From positions 1-22,913 of the IMG/VR virus record IMGVR_UViG_3300031757_000763: 22,913 nucleotides of DNA, one strand, 5' to 3'. The DNA is from a virus. Made by a program: the position numbers and the translations under genes. Below, one piece after another: positions 3,463 through 14,190 of the stretch. Every line of letters starts with the position of its first letter. Position 1 is the stretch's first letter. Below the pieces are notes generated by a model. That model was not told the DNA's origin. It saw only the letters and a program-made list of their open reading frames with translations, and ran no database searches.

Positions 3463-4977
3463 ATGAGTGAAAAACATTATGTTGTTTCTTTACATAAAGG
3501 CTTTAACAAAAATGAAGTCATTGACGATCTAAACAGAGACACGACTACAGACTTTACCGTCGACAGTAATATAATTCCAGATAGAGAAGTACAAAACGTA
3601 AACACTAGACCTTCTAGTAAACGTATCTTTGAAATAGCCCTTACAGACGAAGAAGCAGAAAAACTTAAAAACGATCCTAGAGTAGGTGATGTTAATACAC
3701 CACTTGTATGGAACGACGACTGGATGGATTACGAACAAACTGAAGATTGGACTAGAGATTCTACTTCAACAACAAGAGGTAACTGGGGACTCTTAAGACA
3801 CGGTAATACAGATAATGCTTGGGGACTTAATGTTACGTCAGATCTTCCTGCTGGAACAACTTATGATTATCATTTAGACGGTACTGGTGTTGATTATGTT
3901 CATCAAGAAAGTAAATTTAGATATACACACGAACAATGGCAAGATAAAAACGGCGTTAGTCGTTTAGTACCTTTTCAATGGAACGAACTTCCTAACTGTA
4001 GTCTTATACCTTTTCAAGATTATACTAACACCGCAGGAACAAGTTACCATGCAACTCATTGTGCAGGGACAGCCGTAGGAAAAGATTATGGTTGGGCCAA
4101 GAATGCAAACATTTATTGTTTAGATATGGCTATAAGTTCTTCATACTGGTTCGATGCAATTAAAGAATTTCATAAAGCTAAAGCTGTTGACCCTGTTACA
4201 GGAGTTAAAAGACCAACAGTAGTAGGAGCAAGTTGGGGATATAAAGCATATTTTACTAATATAACAGACATTCAATTTAGAGGTGCTAGTGTAGGAAGTG
4301 TTAAGAGTGCTAACTTTGGAATGATCGGTGATGCATTTAACAAATTTAATGCAAATCTTTATCAACTTAATGTTGAAGTTGAAGAAATGCAAGACGAAGG
4401 TGTACACTATATAAAAAGTGCAGGAAATCAATATCAAAAACTTTGCTACGATGGAGATATAGACTTTGACAATCATATTACTTGCGGTATTAACGTAGGT
4501 AATATTACCGCAGGTAATCCTATATACTATAATAGAGGAGCAGGTAATATAGGTCCTGAAACAATTGTTTGCGGAAATATTGATAGTGAATTATATAATA
4601 ATGTTGAAGCTACAGCTTCATCTAGTGATAAAGGTCCTAGAGTTGACGTATGGGCGGCTGGTACAGATATTATTAGTGCTACAAATACTGATGATACTGC
4701 AATATTAAATCTTAGTGGAACATCAATGGCTACTCCACAAGTATCAGGAATGAGTTGTTTATTATTACAATTAAATCCAGGATGGACACCTGCACAATTA
4801 CGCAAATGGTGGCAAGACAATGCAATTAAAGATTTAATGCATCAAGGTTCAACAGATGAAGGTACACCATCTACTTTTTTCTCAAATGATAGAAGTTTAA
4901 TGAATGGTTCTAATAGAATAGCTTATTTGCCATATGTAGTTAATAGAGCATTAACAACAAACGTAGGGATACTTTAA
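3463..4977 (+). CDS. Subtilisin-like (S8) protease homologue with altered catalytic Asp
   Basis: A 504-residue subtilase-family protein. Residues 3-83 resemble an inhibitor-I9-type propeptide (YVVSLHKGF, then LTDEEAEKLKNDPRV); the peptidase domain spans about 105-450. Visible elements: His box YHATHCAG with H196, oxyanion region SAGN with N322, and Ser box GTSMATP with S421. At the position of the catalytic Asp the sequence is HQESKF, so E149 (codon 3907-3909) replaces Asp, and the Gly of the D-x-G motif is lost too. The paralogue directly downstream keeps the normal motif. It may therefore be a weak or inactive protease, or a partner of the second one. The SD is AAGGAG. It sits among fibre genes, so virion association or processing of structural proteins is likely. 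No signal peptide is evident. Family assignment is secure; activity is not. Confidence 0.88.
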   Translation: MSEKHYVVSLHKGFNKNEVIDDLNRDTTTDFTVDSNIIPDREVQNVNTRPSSKRIFEIALTDEEAEKLKNDPRVGDVNTPLVWNDDWMDYEQTEDWTRDSTSTTRGNWGLLRHGNTDNAWGLNVTSDLPAGTTYDYHLDGTGVDYVHQESKFRYTHEQWQDKNGVSRLVPFQWNELPNCSLIPFQDYTNTAGTSYHATHCAGTAVGKDYGWAKNANIYCLDMAISSSYWFDAIKEFHKAKAVDPVTGVKRPTVVGASWGYKAYFTNITDIQFRGASVGSVKSANFGMIGDAFNKFNANLYQLNVEVEEMQDEGVHYIKSAGNQYQKLCYDGDIDFDNHITCGINVGNITAGNPIYYNRGAGNIGPETIVCGNIDSELYNNVEATASSSDKGPRVDVWAAGTDIISATNTDDTAILNLSGTSMATPQVSGMSCLLLQLNPGWTPAQLRKWWQDNAIKDLMHQGSTDEGTPSTFFSNDRSLMNGSNRIAYLPYVVNRALTTNVGIL

Positions 4978-6587
4978 TGGCTGGTGAAAAAGAATATATA
5001 GTTGTTACTAAAAAAGGTATCGATGTTGCAGAAATAGAACAAGAACTAGGAAGAGATACTTCTAGTGATGCTTCTGTTAGTGCAAACGTGCCAGGTAGAA
5101 CTGTTGATGTAGCTTATGCTAAAAAACATAATAATAGAATGACTCATTATATGTTAACTGATGCCGAAGCGGCAGAGTTATCAAAAGATCCAAGAATACA
5201 TATAGTAGAAGGAAAACCAGATCCAGCGAATAAAGAATTATACCAAACACAAATTGGTCAATTTGATCGGTCAGGTGTAAATGATCAAGATGCCGTTAAT
5301 TGGGGATTAAAAAGACACATTCTTAAAGAATATGATTTGGCGGCGGCAACTAATGGGTACACAGGAAATTATACTTATGCATTAGATGGTACAGGTGTTG
5401 ACGTTGTTATACAAGATGACGGTGTTGATCCTACAGGACATCCTGAATGGGAAGATGCAAATGGCACTACAAGATTTATACAACTAGATTGGAATACAAT
5501 TATTCCAGGGACAATGGGAACAAATCATTATACAAATATTACCGGCGATAGTCAACCAGCAGGAGAACACGGAAGTCATTGTTGTGGTATTGCCGCAGGT
5601 AAAACTTATGGTTGGGCCAAGAATTCAAAAATTTATTCAGTAAGAGTATTTGGCGGTGCTGAAGAGGTTTCTGAACCATTTGATGTTATTAGACTTTTTC
5701 ACGAACAAAAACCTATTGATCCTGTTACAGGATTTAAACGTCCGACAATTGTAAATCAAAGTTGGGGCTATGGTTATTACTATCCACTTGGCGGTGGGTT
5801 TGGGCAAGTAACATCTATTTTTTACAAAGGAGTAGATCAAGGTATTGTTACTCAAAACTGGACGTCTGGTACTTTTACACAATACGGATGTCCTAACAAT
5901 AAACATCCAATATCATATTCTTCAGTAAACACTGAACAAGAACAATTAACAGATTCAGGAGTAATTTGTGTTAATGCCGCGGGTAATGGATATCATCCTA
6001 TTTCAGGCCCTAATGCTCCATACAATAGTGACATTTATGATAGTTACTATACAAATAGCTTATATGGGGTGACGCCAATTTATTATAACCAGGCTGGTTC
6101 TCCAATAAGTGATGACACAATTGTTGTAGCAAACTTAGATCAGGGTCTATTTGGTACTGAAGAAATGATAAGAAATGATAGTGAAAGAGGACCACGTATT
6201 GATATAATAGCGGCTGGTGATGATATTACAAGTGCTACAAGTCAAGTAAGTACATATGGTTCAAAACAACTTTACCCTGGAAGTGCTTCTCACTATATTG
6301 CACGAATAGGTGGCACATCAATGGCATCTCCACAAATTTGTGGAATAGGTGCATTATGGTTACAAGCAAATCCAGGCGGAACAGCACAACAATTTAAAGA
6401 TTTTCTAGCAATACACTCTACAGCTAATTGCTATGATAGTGGAACAGATGAAGATTTTAATGCTTTCAACGCCATTCCAAGACGCTATGGTGCGCCAAAT
6501 AAAATACTACATTGGCCATATAGTAGTCCTAATCCTTGGGGATTCAAAGGTAGTAGTGGAAGCAGTACTCCTGGAATAAATACATAA
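4977..6587 (+). CDS. Subtilisin-like (S8) serine protease, complete triad
   Basis: A 536-residue subtilase. An I9-type propeptide is seen at about residues 5-80 (EYIVVTKKGID, then LTDAEAAELSKDPRIHIVE). The catalytic domain has D147 in VVIQDDGVD, H198 in EHGSHCCG, oxyanion N337 in NAAGN and S448 in GGTSMASPQ, so the full Asp/His/Ser triad is present. It is clearly a paralogue of the gene before it: propeptide layout, the GWAKN segment, the DPVTG-KRPT stretch and the SWGY strand all align. Its ATG shares one base with the upstream stop (TAATG), which indicates translational coupling. Possible roles are maturation of the neighbouring fibres or digestion of host surface protein during adsorption; the sequence does not decide between these. 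The Gly/Ser-rich C-terminus (about 520-536) may be a linker or anchor. Confidence 0.92.
   Translation: MAGEKEYIVVTKKGIDVAEIEQELGRDTSSDASVSANVPGRTVDVAYAKKHNNRMTHYMLTDAEAAELSKDPRIHIVEGKPDPANKELYQTQIGQFDRSGVNDQDAVNWGLKRHILKEYDLAAATNGYTGNYTYALDGTGVDVVIQDDGVDPTGHPEWEDANGTTRFIQLDWNTIIPGTMGTNHYTNITGDSQPAGEHGSHCCGIAAGKTYGWAKNSKIYSVRVFGGAEEVSEPFDVIRLFHEQKPIDPVTGFKRPTIVNQSWGYGYYYPLGGGFGQVTSIFYKGVDQGIVTQNWTSGTFTQYGCPNNKHPISYSSVNTEQEQLTDSGVICVNAAGNGYHPISGPNAPYNSDIYDSYYTNSLYGVTPIYYNQAGSPISDDTIVVANLDQGLFGTEEMIRNDSERGPRIDIIAAGDDITSATSQVSTYGSKQLYPGSASHYIARIGGTSMASPQICGIGALWLQANPGGTAQQFKDFLAIHSTANCYDSGTDEDFNAFNAIPRRYGAPNKILHWPYSSPNPWGFKGSSGSSTPGINT
6575..6583 (+). promoter_or_regulatory. Late-promoter-like motif AATAAATAC
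   Basis: AATAAATAC overlaps the last codons of the upstream protease gene and ends 17 bases before the ATG at 6601. It matches the core ATAAATA of the T4 late promoter and could start a unit carrying the short fibre protein, the YHYH protein and the SbmA-like transporter. Confidence 0.45.
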
Positions 6588-7315: not shown

Positions 7316-8194
7316 ATGGCAACATTAACAATTACATCAAATGGTTTACCTAATCCGGCGGCATTCGGAAATGCATTCGGAAATAATGATTTTTCGCCAA
7401 ACGTAAATACTGCGATTGCACAATCTTATAATTATTCTATTGTATATCGCGGTGGAGAAAATACTACTAATGCACAGGTAACAGTTCCTTTAACACCAAT
7501 GGGTATTATGTCTAACGGTGTTATATTTTTTAATCCTTCAGTAGGTCCAACAACTGTTCCACCAGGACTTGATCCTGTAACAGATGCACCAGGCGATGGC
7601 TTTGAATATAATGCAGTAGCATTTAGATCAAACTTTGGTGGCGACGATGCAGGTGGATGGCCAGAAACTAACGGACAATATCATTATATGTCTGGAATGT
7701 TTATGTTTTTACCAACAGGTTCAGCAGAATCAAATCCATCTTGGGATGCCGCTATGTTAACAGCGTCAACTCCGACGCCAACTTATTACACGGGAACTAA
7801 TTACAGTAGTGATAACTTTAGACACGCAGATGGACATAGTAAGATACTTGGATATTGTTTTGACGGATATCCAATTTACGGACCATATTCATACGTAGAT
7901 CCTAATGCAGAATTAGGAACCGCAGTTACTAGAATGACTTCATCATATCAATACTATACTACAGAACCAACTGGACGTGGTTACACTTATGGTGAAAAAG
8001 CGGCTGGTACATTTGTTAATGATCATGAATACCAAGTAGGTACTGGTCATTTAGATGCATACAACGGTCGATACAACAAAACTCCTGACTATCCAAACGG
8101 AACATGGGCATATTACTTGTCAGTGGATTCAAACCTTCAACCGGTTTATCCATACATAGTTGGTCCATCAACCAAACATCAGCGTAGCGTTTAA
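7316..8194 (+). CDS. YHYH-domain protein
   Basis: A 292-residue protein with the hallmarks of the YHYH domain family: a GQYHYM segment (residues 120-125), GHSKILGYCFDGYPIYGPYSY (173-193) and a C-terminal HLDAYNGRYNKTPDYPNGTWAYY...YPYIVGP block (245-283). The family name motif YHYH is here YHYM, so the second His is replaced. The biochemical role of the family is not established. The domain is found in bacteria and in virion proteins of marine phages. Conserved His residues (H123, H170, H174) could bind a metal, but this is inference. No signal peptide is seen; the N-terminal ~100 residues are less conserved. The SD is AAGGAAAGAG, 10 bases after the previous stop. Position within the fibre block suggests a virion component. 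Confidence 0.8.
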   Translation: MATLTITSNGLPNPAAFGNAFGNNDFSPNVNTAIAQSYNYSIVYRGGENTTNAQVTVPLTPMGIMSNGVIFFNPSVGPTTVPPGLDPVTDAPGDGFEYNAVAFRSNFGGDDAGGWPETNGQYHYMSGMFMFLPTGSAESNPSWDAAMLTASTPTPTYYTGTNYSSDNFRHADGHSKILGYCFDGYPIYGPYSYVDPNAELGTAVTRMTSSYQYYTTEPTGRGYTYGEKAAGTFVNDHEYQVGTGHLDAYNGRYNKTPDYPNGTWAYYLSVDSNLQPVYPYIVGPSTKHQRSV

Positions 8195-8207: not shown

Positions 8208-9233
8208 ATGATCGGCGCATACTACAAAAGTCGAAAATGGGCTTTGTGGGCCTGGGGCGGTGGTGCCTTACTTATTGCATCTTTATGGATTCAAGTACAA
8301 ATAACTGTAGCCATAAACACATGGTACGGTGGATTTTATAACTTATTACAACAAGCAGGCGATTATAAAGATAAAGCTGACGTAGGTACAGCATTATTTT
8401 ACAATAAATTAATTAGTTTCGAATACTGGACTAGTGGATTACAAGGCGAACCCTCATTTGCCGTTTTAGCATTTCCCTACGTATTATTAGCAGTTGCAAC
8501 AGGATGGTTTACCCGTCTATATGGATTGCGGTGGCGTGAAGCAATTACATTTGATTACATTCCACGATGGCGTAATGTTAAAACTGAAATAGAAGGTGCT
8601 AGTCAGCGTATTCAAGAAGATTGTAATAGATTTGCTCGTATTGTAGAAGGTTTAGGATTACAAGTTGTACGAGCTATAATGACGTTGGTAGCTTTTATTC
8701 CTGTATTATGGGCATTAAGTGATGCAGTTACAATTCCATGGTTTAGTGATATTCCAGGTTCTTTAGTATGGACCGCTTTAGTTGTATCATTAGGTGGTAT
8801 TGTTATTTCATGGTTTGTTGGGTGGAAACTTCCAGGACTAGAATATAATAATCAAAAGGTAGAAGCCGCATTTAGAAAAGATTTAGTACTAGGTGAAGAC
8901 GATAAAGCCAATTACGCACAACCAGAAACACTATGGAGTTTATTTACTGGTATACGATTTAACTATCACAGACTTTATATGCATTATGGCTACTTTGACA
9001 CTTGGCGTATTACTTACGATCAATTTATGATTATTGTACCATATTTAATTGTAGGACCTAGCTTATTTACAGGTGCTATATTATTAGGTGTAGTAGTACA
9101 AGTATCAAATGCTTTCCAAAAGGTTCATGGGGGCTTTGCTTTATTTTTAGAAAACTGGACCACTATTACAGAGCTTCGCAGTATATGGAAGCGTCTACAC
9201 GAGTTCGAACGTAACTTGACCAAGTATGCATAA
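8208..9233 (+). CDS. SbmA/BacA-family inner-membrane peptide transporter
   Basis: A 341-residue polytopic membrane protein closely resembling E. coli SbmA. The diagnostic stretches EGASQRIQED (129-138), KLPGLEYNNQKVEAAFRKDL (207-226), LGEDD and RLYMHYGYFDTWRI are near-identical to the bacterial family. Likely membrane segments are at about 12-34, 82-105, 151-175, 186-206 and 272-299. SbmA/BacA proteins import peptides such as microcin B17, proline-rich antimicrobial peptides and bleomycin using the proton gradient and have no ATPase domain; none is encoded nearby. It is about 65 residues shorter at the N-terminus than E. coli SbmA. The start has no clear Shine-Dalgarno sequence. It lies 13 bases after the YHYH gene, inside the late structural block, which is odd for a metabolic gene. 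Family is very likely; purpose in infection is unknown. Confidence 0.93.
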   Translation: MIGAYYKSRKWALWAWGGGALLIASLWIQVQITVAINTWYGGFYNLLQQAGDYKDKADVGTALFYNKLISFEYWTSGLQGEPSFAVLAFPYVLLAVATGWFTRLYGLRWREAITFDYIPRWRNVKTEIEGASQRIQEDCNRFARIVEGLGLQVVRAIMTLVAFIPVLWALSDAVTIPWFSDIPGSLVWTALVVSLGGIVISWFVGWKLPGLEYNNQKVEAAFRKDLVLGEDDKANYAQPETLWSLFTGIRFNYHRLYMHYGYFDTWRITYDQFMIIVPYLIVGPSLFTGAILLGVVVQVSNAFQKVHGGFALFLENWTTITELRSIWKRLHEFERNLTKYA

Positions 9234-9271: not shown

Positions 9272-12200
9272 ATGGCAAATTTACCTGTTTGGACACAACT
9301 ATCAGGACATACACTAGCAACTTTAGAGGAAAGATTAACTACAACAGTTATTCTACCTTTAGACCCTTCTAGTGCTGATCTTGGGGGATTATTTAACCCT
9401 GAATCAACCGCGTTAAGTAGCGACCCCTTACCTACACTAACAAATTCAACAGACATAGATATAACTAAAACTTGGTCACAAGAACCTGGTGGATATACAT
9501 ATCCTGTATCTATAAGAGTTCCTACTATTCCTGCTCTCACAAATAAAAAAGTACCAGTAGCTATATTGCTACATGGAGATAGTGGAACAGGTAGTAATGA
9601 AATTACTACTTGGGAAAACTATTTAGGTGATCATATTTTAGTTGCTCCAACAGGATATAACAATACATGGAATGTTGCAACTGAAACATCTAAAGCACCT
9701 GATATTGATATGCTTAAAGATTTAATTACAGCATTAAAAGGATTTAATAATGTTGACGACAACAGAATAAAATTTGTTGGATTTGATACTGGTGCAGGAT
9801 TAGTGAACAGAGCATTTATTGAAATTGGCGACGTAGATATCTATTCATATGTAACTATTGGTTCACAATTATTTGATCCACAATATCGTAACGATACATT
9901 TTTCGCTCCGGCAACACAAACTGGACCTGATGCTACTGATTATAATACAGCTACAATTCCATTACAAGATAAAAGATGGTTAACAATTCATGGAGAAAAT
10001 GATACTGTTATTCCATACGGTGGTGGTCTTGCTAATAGTGTAACATTTTTATCTGCACAAGACTCAACATTTGTTTTAGCAAAAAGTCAAGGATACACAG
10101 GTGGTATAATTCCAGATGCAGGCGGAGTATTTTACGGAACAAATCAAACATACTACTATAGCTACTTAGGTGGGCGAGTAACACATTACAAAACTGGAAC
10201 AGGACATACAGTAGAAACGTTTATGCAAGAAATTGTTCAAGGATTTATGACGTATGTATACACTACTGCTCCAAACATATTTTTAGAAGCAGGTTCTATT
10301 ACAACTATTCAACTTAATACAAGTATTGTAAGTTTAATAAGTGGACAATTACCTGCAGGAATGAGATTAGAAGAAAATCAAATTGTAGGAACACCATTTG
10401 AAGTACAACGTAGTACTACATTTGAATTTGTATTACGTGCAACAAATTCTTCTGGAATTGCTGATAGAACATATAATATTATTGTAAATGGTCCTGATGA
10501 ACCGGTCTGGACAACTAATGAAGGTAAACTTCCAATAGGACCTAATAATTCTTTTTATATTATAGATAGCAGTATTGTTGATTTCCAACTTTCTGCAATT
10601 GATCCGGATCTACCAGCAGGAGATGAACTTGAATATTTTATTGCTGACGGAGATGGCACACTACCTCCAGGTATAACATTAACTGAAGAAGGTAGACTTA
10701 TAGGAATTGTTGATCCTATTTTAGCATTAGATCTTAGATCTGGTAGCGGCTTTTATGATACTACACAATTTGATAGTTTTCCATTCGACTTTGGATTAAG
10801 AAGTGCTAATGGTTATGAAAGTTTCTTTTATGATACCACAGGGTATGATAAATCTATTCCAACACGAAGTCCAAAAAAACTTAATAGATTTTTTGAATTT
10901 AAAGTAAGTGTTAGTGACGGTGATACAGTTGTAAAAAGAAAATTTATAATATTCTTAGTTGGTGATGATTTCTTACGTGCAGATAATACAGTTATGCAAG
11001 TTGGTACAGGAATATTTACAGCTGATAATACATTCCTTAGAACGCCTGTTTGGTTAACACCAGCAGACATTGGTTATAAACGAGCAAATAATTATGTAAC
11101 AATTTACTTAGATGTATTTGATCCTAATACTATTGTTGGAGAACTAGGATATTATTTAGAACAATATAATGACGATGCAAGTCCTAGTGTGTTACCTCCA
11201 GGAATGGCATTAGATGTTAGTACTGGAGAAATTGCAGGACGAGTTCCATATCAACCAGCAGTTACTAAAGAATATAAATTTACAGTTGAAGCAAGACGCT
11301 TTACTAGTCAAGCAACATTATTAGCGGCAAAGCAAAAAACATTTACAGTTAAAATATTAGGCGAGGTTGAAAGTTCTATTGTATGGATAACTATGCCAGA
11401 CCTAGGAACTATTAAAGCAAACTTTATTAGTACATTTAACGTAGCGGCAAAAATAACTGCTCAATCAATTAGTAGTAAAGTATTATATAGAATCATTAGC
11501 GGAGAATTACCTCCAGGATTAAAATTAAATCCAAATGGAGAAATTGTTGGTAAAGTAAATCAATTTAGAAACCAAGATTCTGTCTCAGGTGAATGGACTA
11601 AAGGTTTAACAACGATTGATAATAATTTACTATTACTTGATGGTTCTACAACTACTGTTGATCGCAAGTTTGTATTTGAGGTTGAAGCACGAGATCGTTT
11701 TGGATTTAGTGTTTTATCACAGAACTATAATATTATAGTTACTGATCCTGACAATATCAGTTACAGTAACTTATCTGTTAAACCTTTCTTAAAACCGGCA
11801 CAGCGTACAACTTATAATAACTTTATCGGAGATCCTAATATTTTTACTCCTGATAAAATTTATAGACCTAATGATCCAGCATTTGGTTTACAAAAACAAA
11901 TTAAAATGTTAATATATGCTGGAATTGAAACTAAAGATGTTCGTGAATATGTTGCAGTATCAAGACAGAATCATTCTAAAAAACGATTTAAATTAGGTTC
12001 AGTTAAAACAGCAGTAGCTAAAAAAGCCGGAACAAATGATGTTCAATATGAAGTAGTTTATTTAGAAGTAATTGATCCATATGATTTTCCACCGCAGGCT
12101 GGGGTACCAGAAACAAAAGTTAGATCTTCTTTAACTATCAAAACTAGACAAGAGATTACTGTAGATAGTGTTGACTATGAAGCATTTGATGATGTTTCTA

Positions 12201-12790
12201 AAGAAGGTGCCGGTGTTGCAGTATTTGAAATAGAAAATGCAATAGGACAAAAAGTTCAAGTAGTAGCATTTGGAAACGATCTTGAAATTATTACTAGAAA
12301 TAATGGAACAGTAATACTTGATGCAAACGGGACAATTCTTGTACAATTACAAAATGGAAATATTATACAAGCTGGAACTATTGCTACAACAACAAGTGAC
12401 CCATTTAGATTTAGACCTAAATTTACTCCAGTTAAAACTGATAGTGATGCTATAAGAATTGACCAAGCATATAATACTCAACGCTATATCAGTAATGTAA
12501 CAAATATGCGTGAAAATATAAAAACAGTTGGGCTTACTGAACGCGATTTCCTACCATTATGGATGACTACGGCCCAGGGCACTTCAGTTCAAGAATTAGG
12601 ATTCATAACGGCTATTCCATTATGTTTTTGTAAGCCTGGAGAAAGTGCCACTATAGCATTAAATATCGCTAATAGCGCCTTCAATTTTAGGGTACTAGAC
12701 TTTGAAATTGATAGATATATAATAGATGCTACAAAAGGAAATAGCTATGAACAATATATACCATTCGGGAACTATGCCTTTAATGTTTAA
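9272..12790 (+). CDS. Large structural protein: alpha/beta-hydrolase-like domain plus Ig-like repeats
   Basis: A 1172-residue protein. Residues ~75-330 look like an alpha/beta hydrolase of the esterase/depolymerase type: oxyanion-type LLHGDSGTG (99-107), a nucleophile-elbow position VGFDTGAG (169-176), acid-like HGENDTVIPYGGG with D244, and GTGHTVETF with H312. The usual G-x-S-x-G serine is Asp (D172, codon 9785-9787). From ~335 on there are putative Ig-like (He_PIG-type) repeats, each with a LP-G-L...G-I-G core: about 357-372, 463-480, 636-655 and 750-766. The C-terminal ~350 residues are unassigned. The AAGTAGGA purine stretch supports the ATG at 9272. It is probably a fibre or adhesin that binds or modifies a host-surface polymer. 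Domain calls are good; activity is uncertain because of the Asp. Confidence 0.82.
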   Translation: MANLPVWTQLSGHTLATLEERLTTTVILPLDPSSADLGGLFNPESTALSSDPLPTLTNSTDIDITKTWSQEPGGYTYPVSIRVPTIPALTNKKVPVAILLHGDSGTGSNEITTWENYLGDHILVAPTGYNNTWNVATETSKAPDIDMLKDLITALKGFNNVDDNRIKFVGFDTGAGLVNRAFIEIGDVDIYSYVTIGSQLFDPQYRNDTFFAPATQTGPDATDYNTATIPLQDKRWLTIHGENDTVIPYGGGLANSVTFLSAQDSTFVLAKSQGYTGGIIPDAGGVFYGTNQTYYYSYLGGRVTHYKTGTGHTVETFMQEIVQGFMTYVYTTAPNIFLEAGSITTIQLNTSIVSLISGQLPAGMRLEENQIVGTPFEVQRSTTFEFVLRATNSSGIADRTYNIIVNGPDEPVWTTNEGKLPIGPNNSFYIIDSSIVDFQLSAIDPDLPAGDELEYFIADGDGTLPPGITLTEEGRLIGIVDPILALDLRSGSGFYDTTQFDSFPFDFGLRSANGYESFFYDTTGYDKSIPTRSPKKLNRFFEFKVSVSDGDTVVKRKFIIFLVGDDFLRADNTVMQVGTGIFTADNTFLRTPVWLTPADIGYKRANNYVTIYLDVFDPNTIVGELGYYLEQYNDDASPSVLPPGMALDVSTGEIAGRVPYQPAVTKEYKFTVEARRFTSQATLLAAKQKTFTVKILGEVESSIVWITMPDLGTIKANFISTFNVAAKITAQSISSKVLYRIISGELPPGLKLNPNGEIVGKVNQFRNQDSVSGEWTKGLTTIDNNLLLLDGSTTTVDRKFVFEVEARDRFGFSVLSQNYNIIVTDPDNISYSNLSVKPFLKPAQRTTYNNFIGDPNIFTPDKIYRPNDPAFGLQKQIKMLIYAGIETKDVREYVAVSRQNHSKKRFKLGSVKTAVAKKAGTNDVQYEVVYLEVIDPYDFPPQAGVPETKVRSSLTIKTRQEITVDSVDYEAFDDVSKEGAGVAVFEIENAIGQKVQVVAFGNDLEIITRNNGTVILDANGTILVQLQNGNIIQAGTIATTTSDPFRFRPKFTPVKTDSDAIRIDQAYNTQRYISNVTNMRENIKTVGLTERDFLPLWMTTAQGTSVQELGFITAIPLCFCKPGESATIALNIANSAFNFRVLDFEIDRYIIDATKGNSYEQYIPFGNYAFNV

Positions 12791-13632: not shown

Positions 13633-14190
13633 ATGAGAAACATGAAAGTAGACGATCTCGGTGTACCACGATTCACCAATCAAGATATTGTAAATTTAAT
13701 TTACGAAGGAAATAGTGATAAGCTCTCTAAGATATTAGTAGAGCCTAATCGTGACGCCAATCTATACAATAAATCTATTAAAGAACTTGGTTTTAACTTT
13801 TTACCATTAAAAGAATACCAACCACTCTCGTACGATAAGAAACAATTTGATGACGCTTTACAGTCACAATGGTTTATGCCGGACAAGTATAAAGATTTAG
13901 ATATACATAAATGGATGTATGCTCAACTGCAAGACGAACTTGACAAAGAACAAATTGGTGATACAGAAGAATGGATGCGAACTGAAGCAGAATATATTGA
14001 GTACGAAAAACGTGGACTACTTAACTTACTAAGATTTCTTATATATTTGGTAGACATAATGAGAGAAAATAACATAGTATGGGGTGTAGGACGAGGATCT
14101 AGTGTAGCAAGTTATATCCTATACTTAATTGGTATTCATAAAATTAACTCAATCCAGTATGAGCTAGACTGGCATGAGTTCATGAGATAA
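13633..14190 (+). CDS. DnaE-like fragment (DNA polymerase III alpha palm N-terminal motif)
   Basis: A 185-residue protein. Residues ~117-185 resemble the start of the polymerase core of bacterial DNA polymerase III alpha: a Glu-rich helix, EKRGLLNLLRFLIYLVDIMRENNI, then VWGVGRGSSVASYILYLIGIHKI (148-170) and YELDWHEFMR. In DnaE the GRGS loop binds the incoming nucleotide, and the catalytic PD-x-D aspartates come shortly after FERFL. Here the protein ends at HEFMR, so the catalytic part is absent. It cannot be a polymerase alone; it may bind nucleotides or the replication complex. The first ~110 residues are unassigned. The start could instead be ATG 13642, because TATAAATG at 13628-13635 runs through the first ATG. 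The gene lies 12 bases after the small upstream gene. Confidence 0.7.
   Translation: MRNMKVDDLGVPRFTNQDIVNLIYEGNSDKLSKILVEPNRDANLYNKSIKELGFNFLPLKEYQPLSYDKKQFDDALQSQWFMPDKYKDLDIHKWMYAQLQDELDKEQIGDTEEWMRTEAEYIEYEKRGLLNLLRFLIYLVDIMRENNIVWGVGRGSSVASYILYLIGIHKINSIQYELDWHEFMR

Follow-up and report, generated by a model that had tools for sequence, protein, structure and literature searches.

In the window, by which we mean the whole 22,913-base IMG/VR virus record IMGVR_UViG_3300031757_000763, an esterase-derived domain has probably lost its serine catalysis and would be retained on the virion for binding or structure. The earlier note had placed an aspartate where esterases have their serine nucleophile, in the motif VGFDTGAG, and the GAT codon of this residue, D172 (9785-9787, + strand), indeed lies within the positions 9782-9793 that it gave. 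Serine stands at this position in all readable bacterial relatives and in most viral ones.

The gene set of the window is that of a marine T4-like phage. Profile matches identify a YHYH protein, the N-terminus of a baseplate/tail-fibre connector and two subtilases, while PhoH-like and clamp-loader-like genes were recognized by eye. The two subtilase (S8) genes (3463-4977 and 4977-6587, +) are adjacent, encode products about 34% identical to each other, and are probably the outcome of a tandem duplication inside the structural block. Further along, a protein of 185 aa (13633-14190, +) matches the short DNA-polymerase family phrog_11127 (E 1e-41) and is possibly a split or remnant polymerase piece.

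The domain under discussion belongs to an ORF of 1172 aa (9272-12790, +), which contains IKFVGFDTGAGLVNRA and is built from an N-terminal hydrolase-like domain, He_PIG Ig-like repeats (Pfam E 1.2e-14) and a conserved C-terminal region. The latter is modelled with a pLDDT of 35 and gave only a weak match when used to search phages. The ORF is intact in all 14 relatives that were checked with both ends visible. Upstream are the gene of the YHYH-domain protein (7316-8194, +; Pfam YHYH E 1.4e-30; phrog_2576 E 1e-76, profile 13-283) and, between it and the hydrolase gene, that of an SbmA/BacA-like transporter (8208-9233, +), recognized by Pfam SbmA_BacA (E 2.9e-117) and by synteny. This peptide transporter of 341 aa lies within the structural gene block and is under strong purifying selection (dN/dS 0.06-0.13); relatives occur in more than 100 IMG/VR stretches, mostly not adjoining this hydrolase. 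According to published proposals, YHYH domains in operons of this kind are receptor-binding (PMC7029224) or metal-dependent hydrolases (PMC7824862). The gene neighbourhood and the domain fusions suggest a location of the hydrolase protein on the virion and a role in host recognition.

Residues 55-326 (9434-10249, +) form an alpha/beta-hydrolase domain with the fold of CE1 / PHB-depolymerase-type esterases, located N-terminally in a large protein from the tail/baseplate block of a marine T4-like phage. The domain matches phrog_2576 (E 2e-64) and, at E 3.6e-6 and 26.7 bits, which is under the curated cut-off of 150, the PHA depolymerase model NF050058, a weak match that recurs in 25 of 25 relatives. 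No Pfam family is matched by the domain. The best solved match by both sequence and fold is the acetyl xylan esterase B of Aspergillus oryzae (9j07; phmmer E 1.8e-5, Foldseek E 8e-13), and in the sequence match the serine of its GKSNGG motif is aligned to D172. The likeness to these enzymes, feruloyl esterases included, extends to the order of elbow, acid and histidine and to the S-N-G motif of the serine-bearing relatives. The window differs from them in that the G-x-S-x-G serine nucleophile is absent, with aspartate for the serine and threonine for the asparagine next to it, and in that the domain sits on a phage Ig-repeat protein.

Structure prediction bears out the placing of residue 172 at the nucleophile elbow. 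An AlphaFold2 model based on the window domain together with 24 relatives (mean pLDDT 84, pTM 0.82) has D172 between strand 161-171 and helix 173-184. The acid and the histidine named in the earlier note were also found as described: D244 (10001-10003, +) comes just past strand 235-241, at the acid position after strand 7, where alignment and model agree that it is kept, and H312 (10205-10207, +) follows strand 303-308, at the base position after strand 8. The placement of the three residues rests on the secondary structure of the model and on the alignment, and it corresponds to the canonical nucleophile, acid and base positions of alpha/beta hydrolases (PMC7034887). A loop after strand 3, HGDSGTG (residues 101-107; 9572-9592, +), is a putative part of the oxyanion hole. 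Its serine, S104, was considered as a replacement nucleophile and rejected: it is glycine in the Asp-bearing L017 and hence not conserved among the Asp members. A serine elsewhere in the nucleophile role, which would have refuted the earlier note, was thus not found.

As judged from the aligned relatives and the tree, serine is the ancestral state at position 172. Bacterial relatives, 34-46% identical and belonging to Bacteroidota, Neomarinimicrobiota and others, came from a contig scan with an alignment as query; a single-protein query gave none. The elbow motif is Ser-Asn-Gly in all 32 readable bacterial homologues, with D244 in 31 of 31 and H312 in 28 of 28 readable sequences. GxSNG is likewise found in all cyanophage sequences and in most of those from related marine phages. 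Among the former, the phrog_2576 YHYH-hydrolase protein of T4-like Synechococcus phages (ACG-2014d, S-ShM2, S-RIM14) has a hydrolase domain 35-43% identical to that of the window and shares with it a tail/baseplate neighbourhood with a YHYH domain. However, the cyanophages have the YHYH and hydrolase domains in one polypeptide with a GxSNG elbow, whereas the window group has separate genes with the SbmA gene between them, a hydrolase fused to He_PIG repeats and an aspartate at the elbow. In Synechococcus phage ACG-2014h, a subtilase takes the place of the YHYH domain in front of the hydrolase domain, which indicates that the latter travels as a module among tail-region proteins.

Besides the window record, the DNA pattern for GFDTGAG is present in nine separate IMG/VR contigs, which rules out a sequencing error behind Asp172. 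The Asp-bearing sequences constitute three distinct lineages, 79-86% identical: that of the window, the L017 type and the L008 type. Searching the viral sequences with the L008 domain added no Asp lineage to these three. In a tree of 44 distinct viral domains, made with column 172 left out, the departures from serine comprise eight sequences with Asn, one with Gly (L010) and three with Asp. The Gly member has in addition changed HG to HD.

The Asp and Gly sequences share a clade with one Ser sequence, L007, and it is exactly these sequences that have the SbmA/BacA-like insertion between the YHYH and hydrolase genes; the nearest serine relatives of this SbmA clade are without it. Within the clade, residue 172 is Asp in three sequences, Gly in one and Ser in one, and identities to the window are 73-86% (83% for L007). 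Concatenated neighbour genes group L007 with L008 with 98-99% support and reject monophyly of Asp (AU p 0.004 with the hydrolase domain, 0.011 without it), while with the hydrolase domain by itself monophyly is not rejected (p 0.085). Asp therefore had two origins, or a single one followed by reversion to serine in L007, or else recombination moved the segment.

The alignments show that replacement of the serine in the SbmA clade has been repeated and that it is coupled to the loss of the neighbouring Asn173, which is present in 32 of 32 bacterial relatives and in every viral Ser relative except L007. This residue, at the oxyanion-hole position after the nucleophile, is threonine in the window (T173; 9788-9790, +) and has gone in all five clade members, including the Ser-bearing L007. 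Only four of the 61 family-conserved positions, N106, S172, N173 and Y211, differ in each of the three Asp members, and two of them, N106 and N173, differ in the clade's Gly and Ser members as well. Position 106 is T in the window and Asn in most Ser relatives, but it is not strict in bacteria (Asn in 24 of 32 readable relatives). There is a modest clustering of these changes round the elbow and the oxyanion loop (hypergeometric p 0.009; 0.04 without the ascertained S172).

The genetic code gives a further indication. Each single-base path from AGY to GAY goes through Gly or Asn, both of which are non-nucleophilic and both of which occur among the relatives, so that, barring a double substitution, a non-nucleophilic intermediate must have existed. 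The residues and codons are those observed in the relatives, and the simplest route for the SbmA clade, in an order of steps that we infer, would start at AGT (Ser), pass through GGT (Gly) or AAT (Asn) and end at GAT (Asp), with loss of Asn173 alongside. Since both the serine nucleophile and Asn173 have been replaced, covalent serine esterase chemistry would no longer be possible for the domain. The folded domain or its pocket would have been kept for another virion task, most likely the binding of the host-surface polysaccharide or glycolipid group that was once deacylated by the ancestor, or else the positioning of neighbouring domains.

Selection on the domain is in line with relaxed but persisting constraint. 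Among the Asp members, dN/dS is 0.39 in the domain and 0.18 in the rest of the ORF (ratio 2.2, 95% bootstrap 1.4-3.2), which indicates that the domain is less constrained in this group, yet not free. In the main Ser clade the corresponding values are 0.168 and 0.126 (ratio 1.3). The contrast between the Asp members and this Ser clade has a bootstrap fraction of 0.034, or 0.012 with L007 added, values that are indicative only because the pairs are not independent; with all five SbmA-clade members it is 0.17 and not significant. Intact ORFs and dN/dS values near 0.4 or lower rule out a pseudogene.

The Asn sequences provide a second case. They make up a clade of eight distinct sequences (100/100 support) that is also without the histidine at the base loop, and dN/dS is 0.151 in the domain and 0.094 in the rest of the ORF. 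As the ORFs are intact and dN/dS is low, the domain has been kept without the triad, and by its alignment this clade is apparently a stable, non-catalytic form of the hydrolase domain. An apparent D244N change was left unused, the alignment there being ambiguous by one residue. The clade (L054:3052-4113 and relatives L092-L106) also has a conserved insertion ahead of the acid loop. As in a pseudoenzyme, then, the nucleophile is gone while the ORF is intact and constrained (dN/dS about 0.39 for the Asp members and 0.15 for the Asn clade). Neuroligins are non-catalytic alpha/beta hydrolases in which the esterase fold has lost its serine nucleophile and serves for binding. The phage lineage is unrelated to them, and its loss is recent, with a residue that varies between close phages. 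Searches of the literature gave no report of a non-catalytic hydrolase fold on a phage tail.

Several observations count against a loss of activity. The Asp members have preserved D244, H312 and the HG loop, and dN/dS of their domain is still far under 1. Furthermore, L007, with its serine, may be active, and fixation of the same GFDTGAG context in three lineages at 79-86% identity could mean that Asp itself was selected. If the concatenated tree is right, a twofold origin of Asp or a return to Ser would be as compatible with a functional switch as with drift. Kept D244 and H312 were rejected as proof of catalysis, being weak evidence, because most of the family-conserved positions (52 of 61) show no change in any of the three Asp members.

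It is unlikely that the clade is shifting its substrate instead of losing activity, with Asp172 as a general base that activates water or with a weak esterase activity remaining. Retention of the HG loop, D244 and H312 would fit such a shift, as would the serine of L007 at 83% identity, but the whole clade has lost Asn173 of the elbow, a residue that never varies in the other Ser relatives. Equally improbable is that Asp172 is a working nucleophile and that an Asp-His-Asp chemistry like that of haloalkane dehalogenases or epoxide hydrolases evolved independently on the CE1 scaffold. The elbow aspartate, the acid and the histidine are all at the usual positions of those enzymes, and the D-T-G context is common to the three lineages and nine contigs. 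However, in haloalkane dehalogenases and epoxide hydrolases, the nucleophilic Asp is directly followed by Trp, a position held by Thr173 in all Asp members, and a helical cap between strands 6 and 7 is not predicted, residues 197-234 forming two short strands and loops. The window belongs to another sequence family: neither enzyme is among the best 50 PDB folds found by Foldseek with the window model, nor is there a Pfam match, and relatives have G, N or S at the site. Such chemistry is not needed for explaining the data. Still less likely is a divalent-cation site formed by D172, D244 and H312 that aids binding or metal-dependent hydrolysis: potential ligands are indeed present at all three active-site positions of the model, but the Gly and Ser members retain D244 and H312 without D172, so these two are not kept for a metal site.

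Of the two meanings offered in the earlier note, a binding-only domain is thus favoured, and a different, Asp-based chemistry is less supported. The grounds are the variation of the site between D, G and S or to Asn, the loss of Asn173, the kinship with CE1 / PHB-depolymerase esterases, the lack of a Trp at the next position and of a helical cap, and the best fold matches, which include no dehalogenase or epoxide hydrolase.

Phage-tail esterase domains usually cut host-surface sugars. There is only a slight chance that here a serine esterase domain of CE1 type, carried by a tail-region protein, has turned independently into a hydrolase with an Asp nucleophile or other Asp-based chemistry; if this were true, the Ser, Gly and Asp versions, in domains 73-86% identical, would display a nucleophile swap as a series found in nature. 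The Ser, Gly and Asp relatives, together with the clade that lacks both serine and histidine, constitute a test set for the passage from tail enzyme to binder, or for a takeover by Asp. In this hydrolase family, the fold alone is an unsafe basis for annotation as an esterase.
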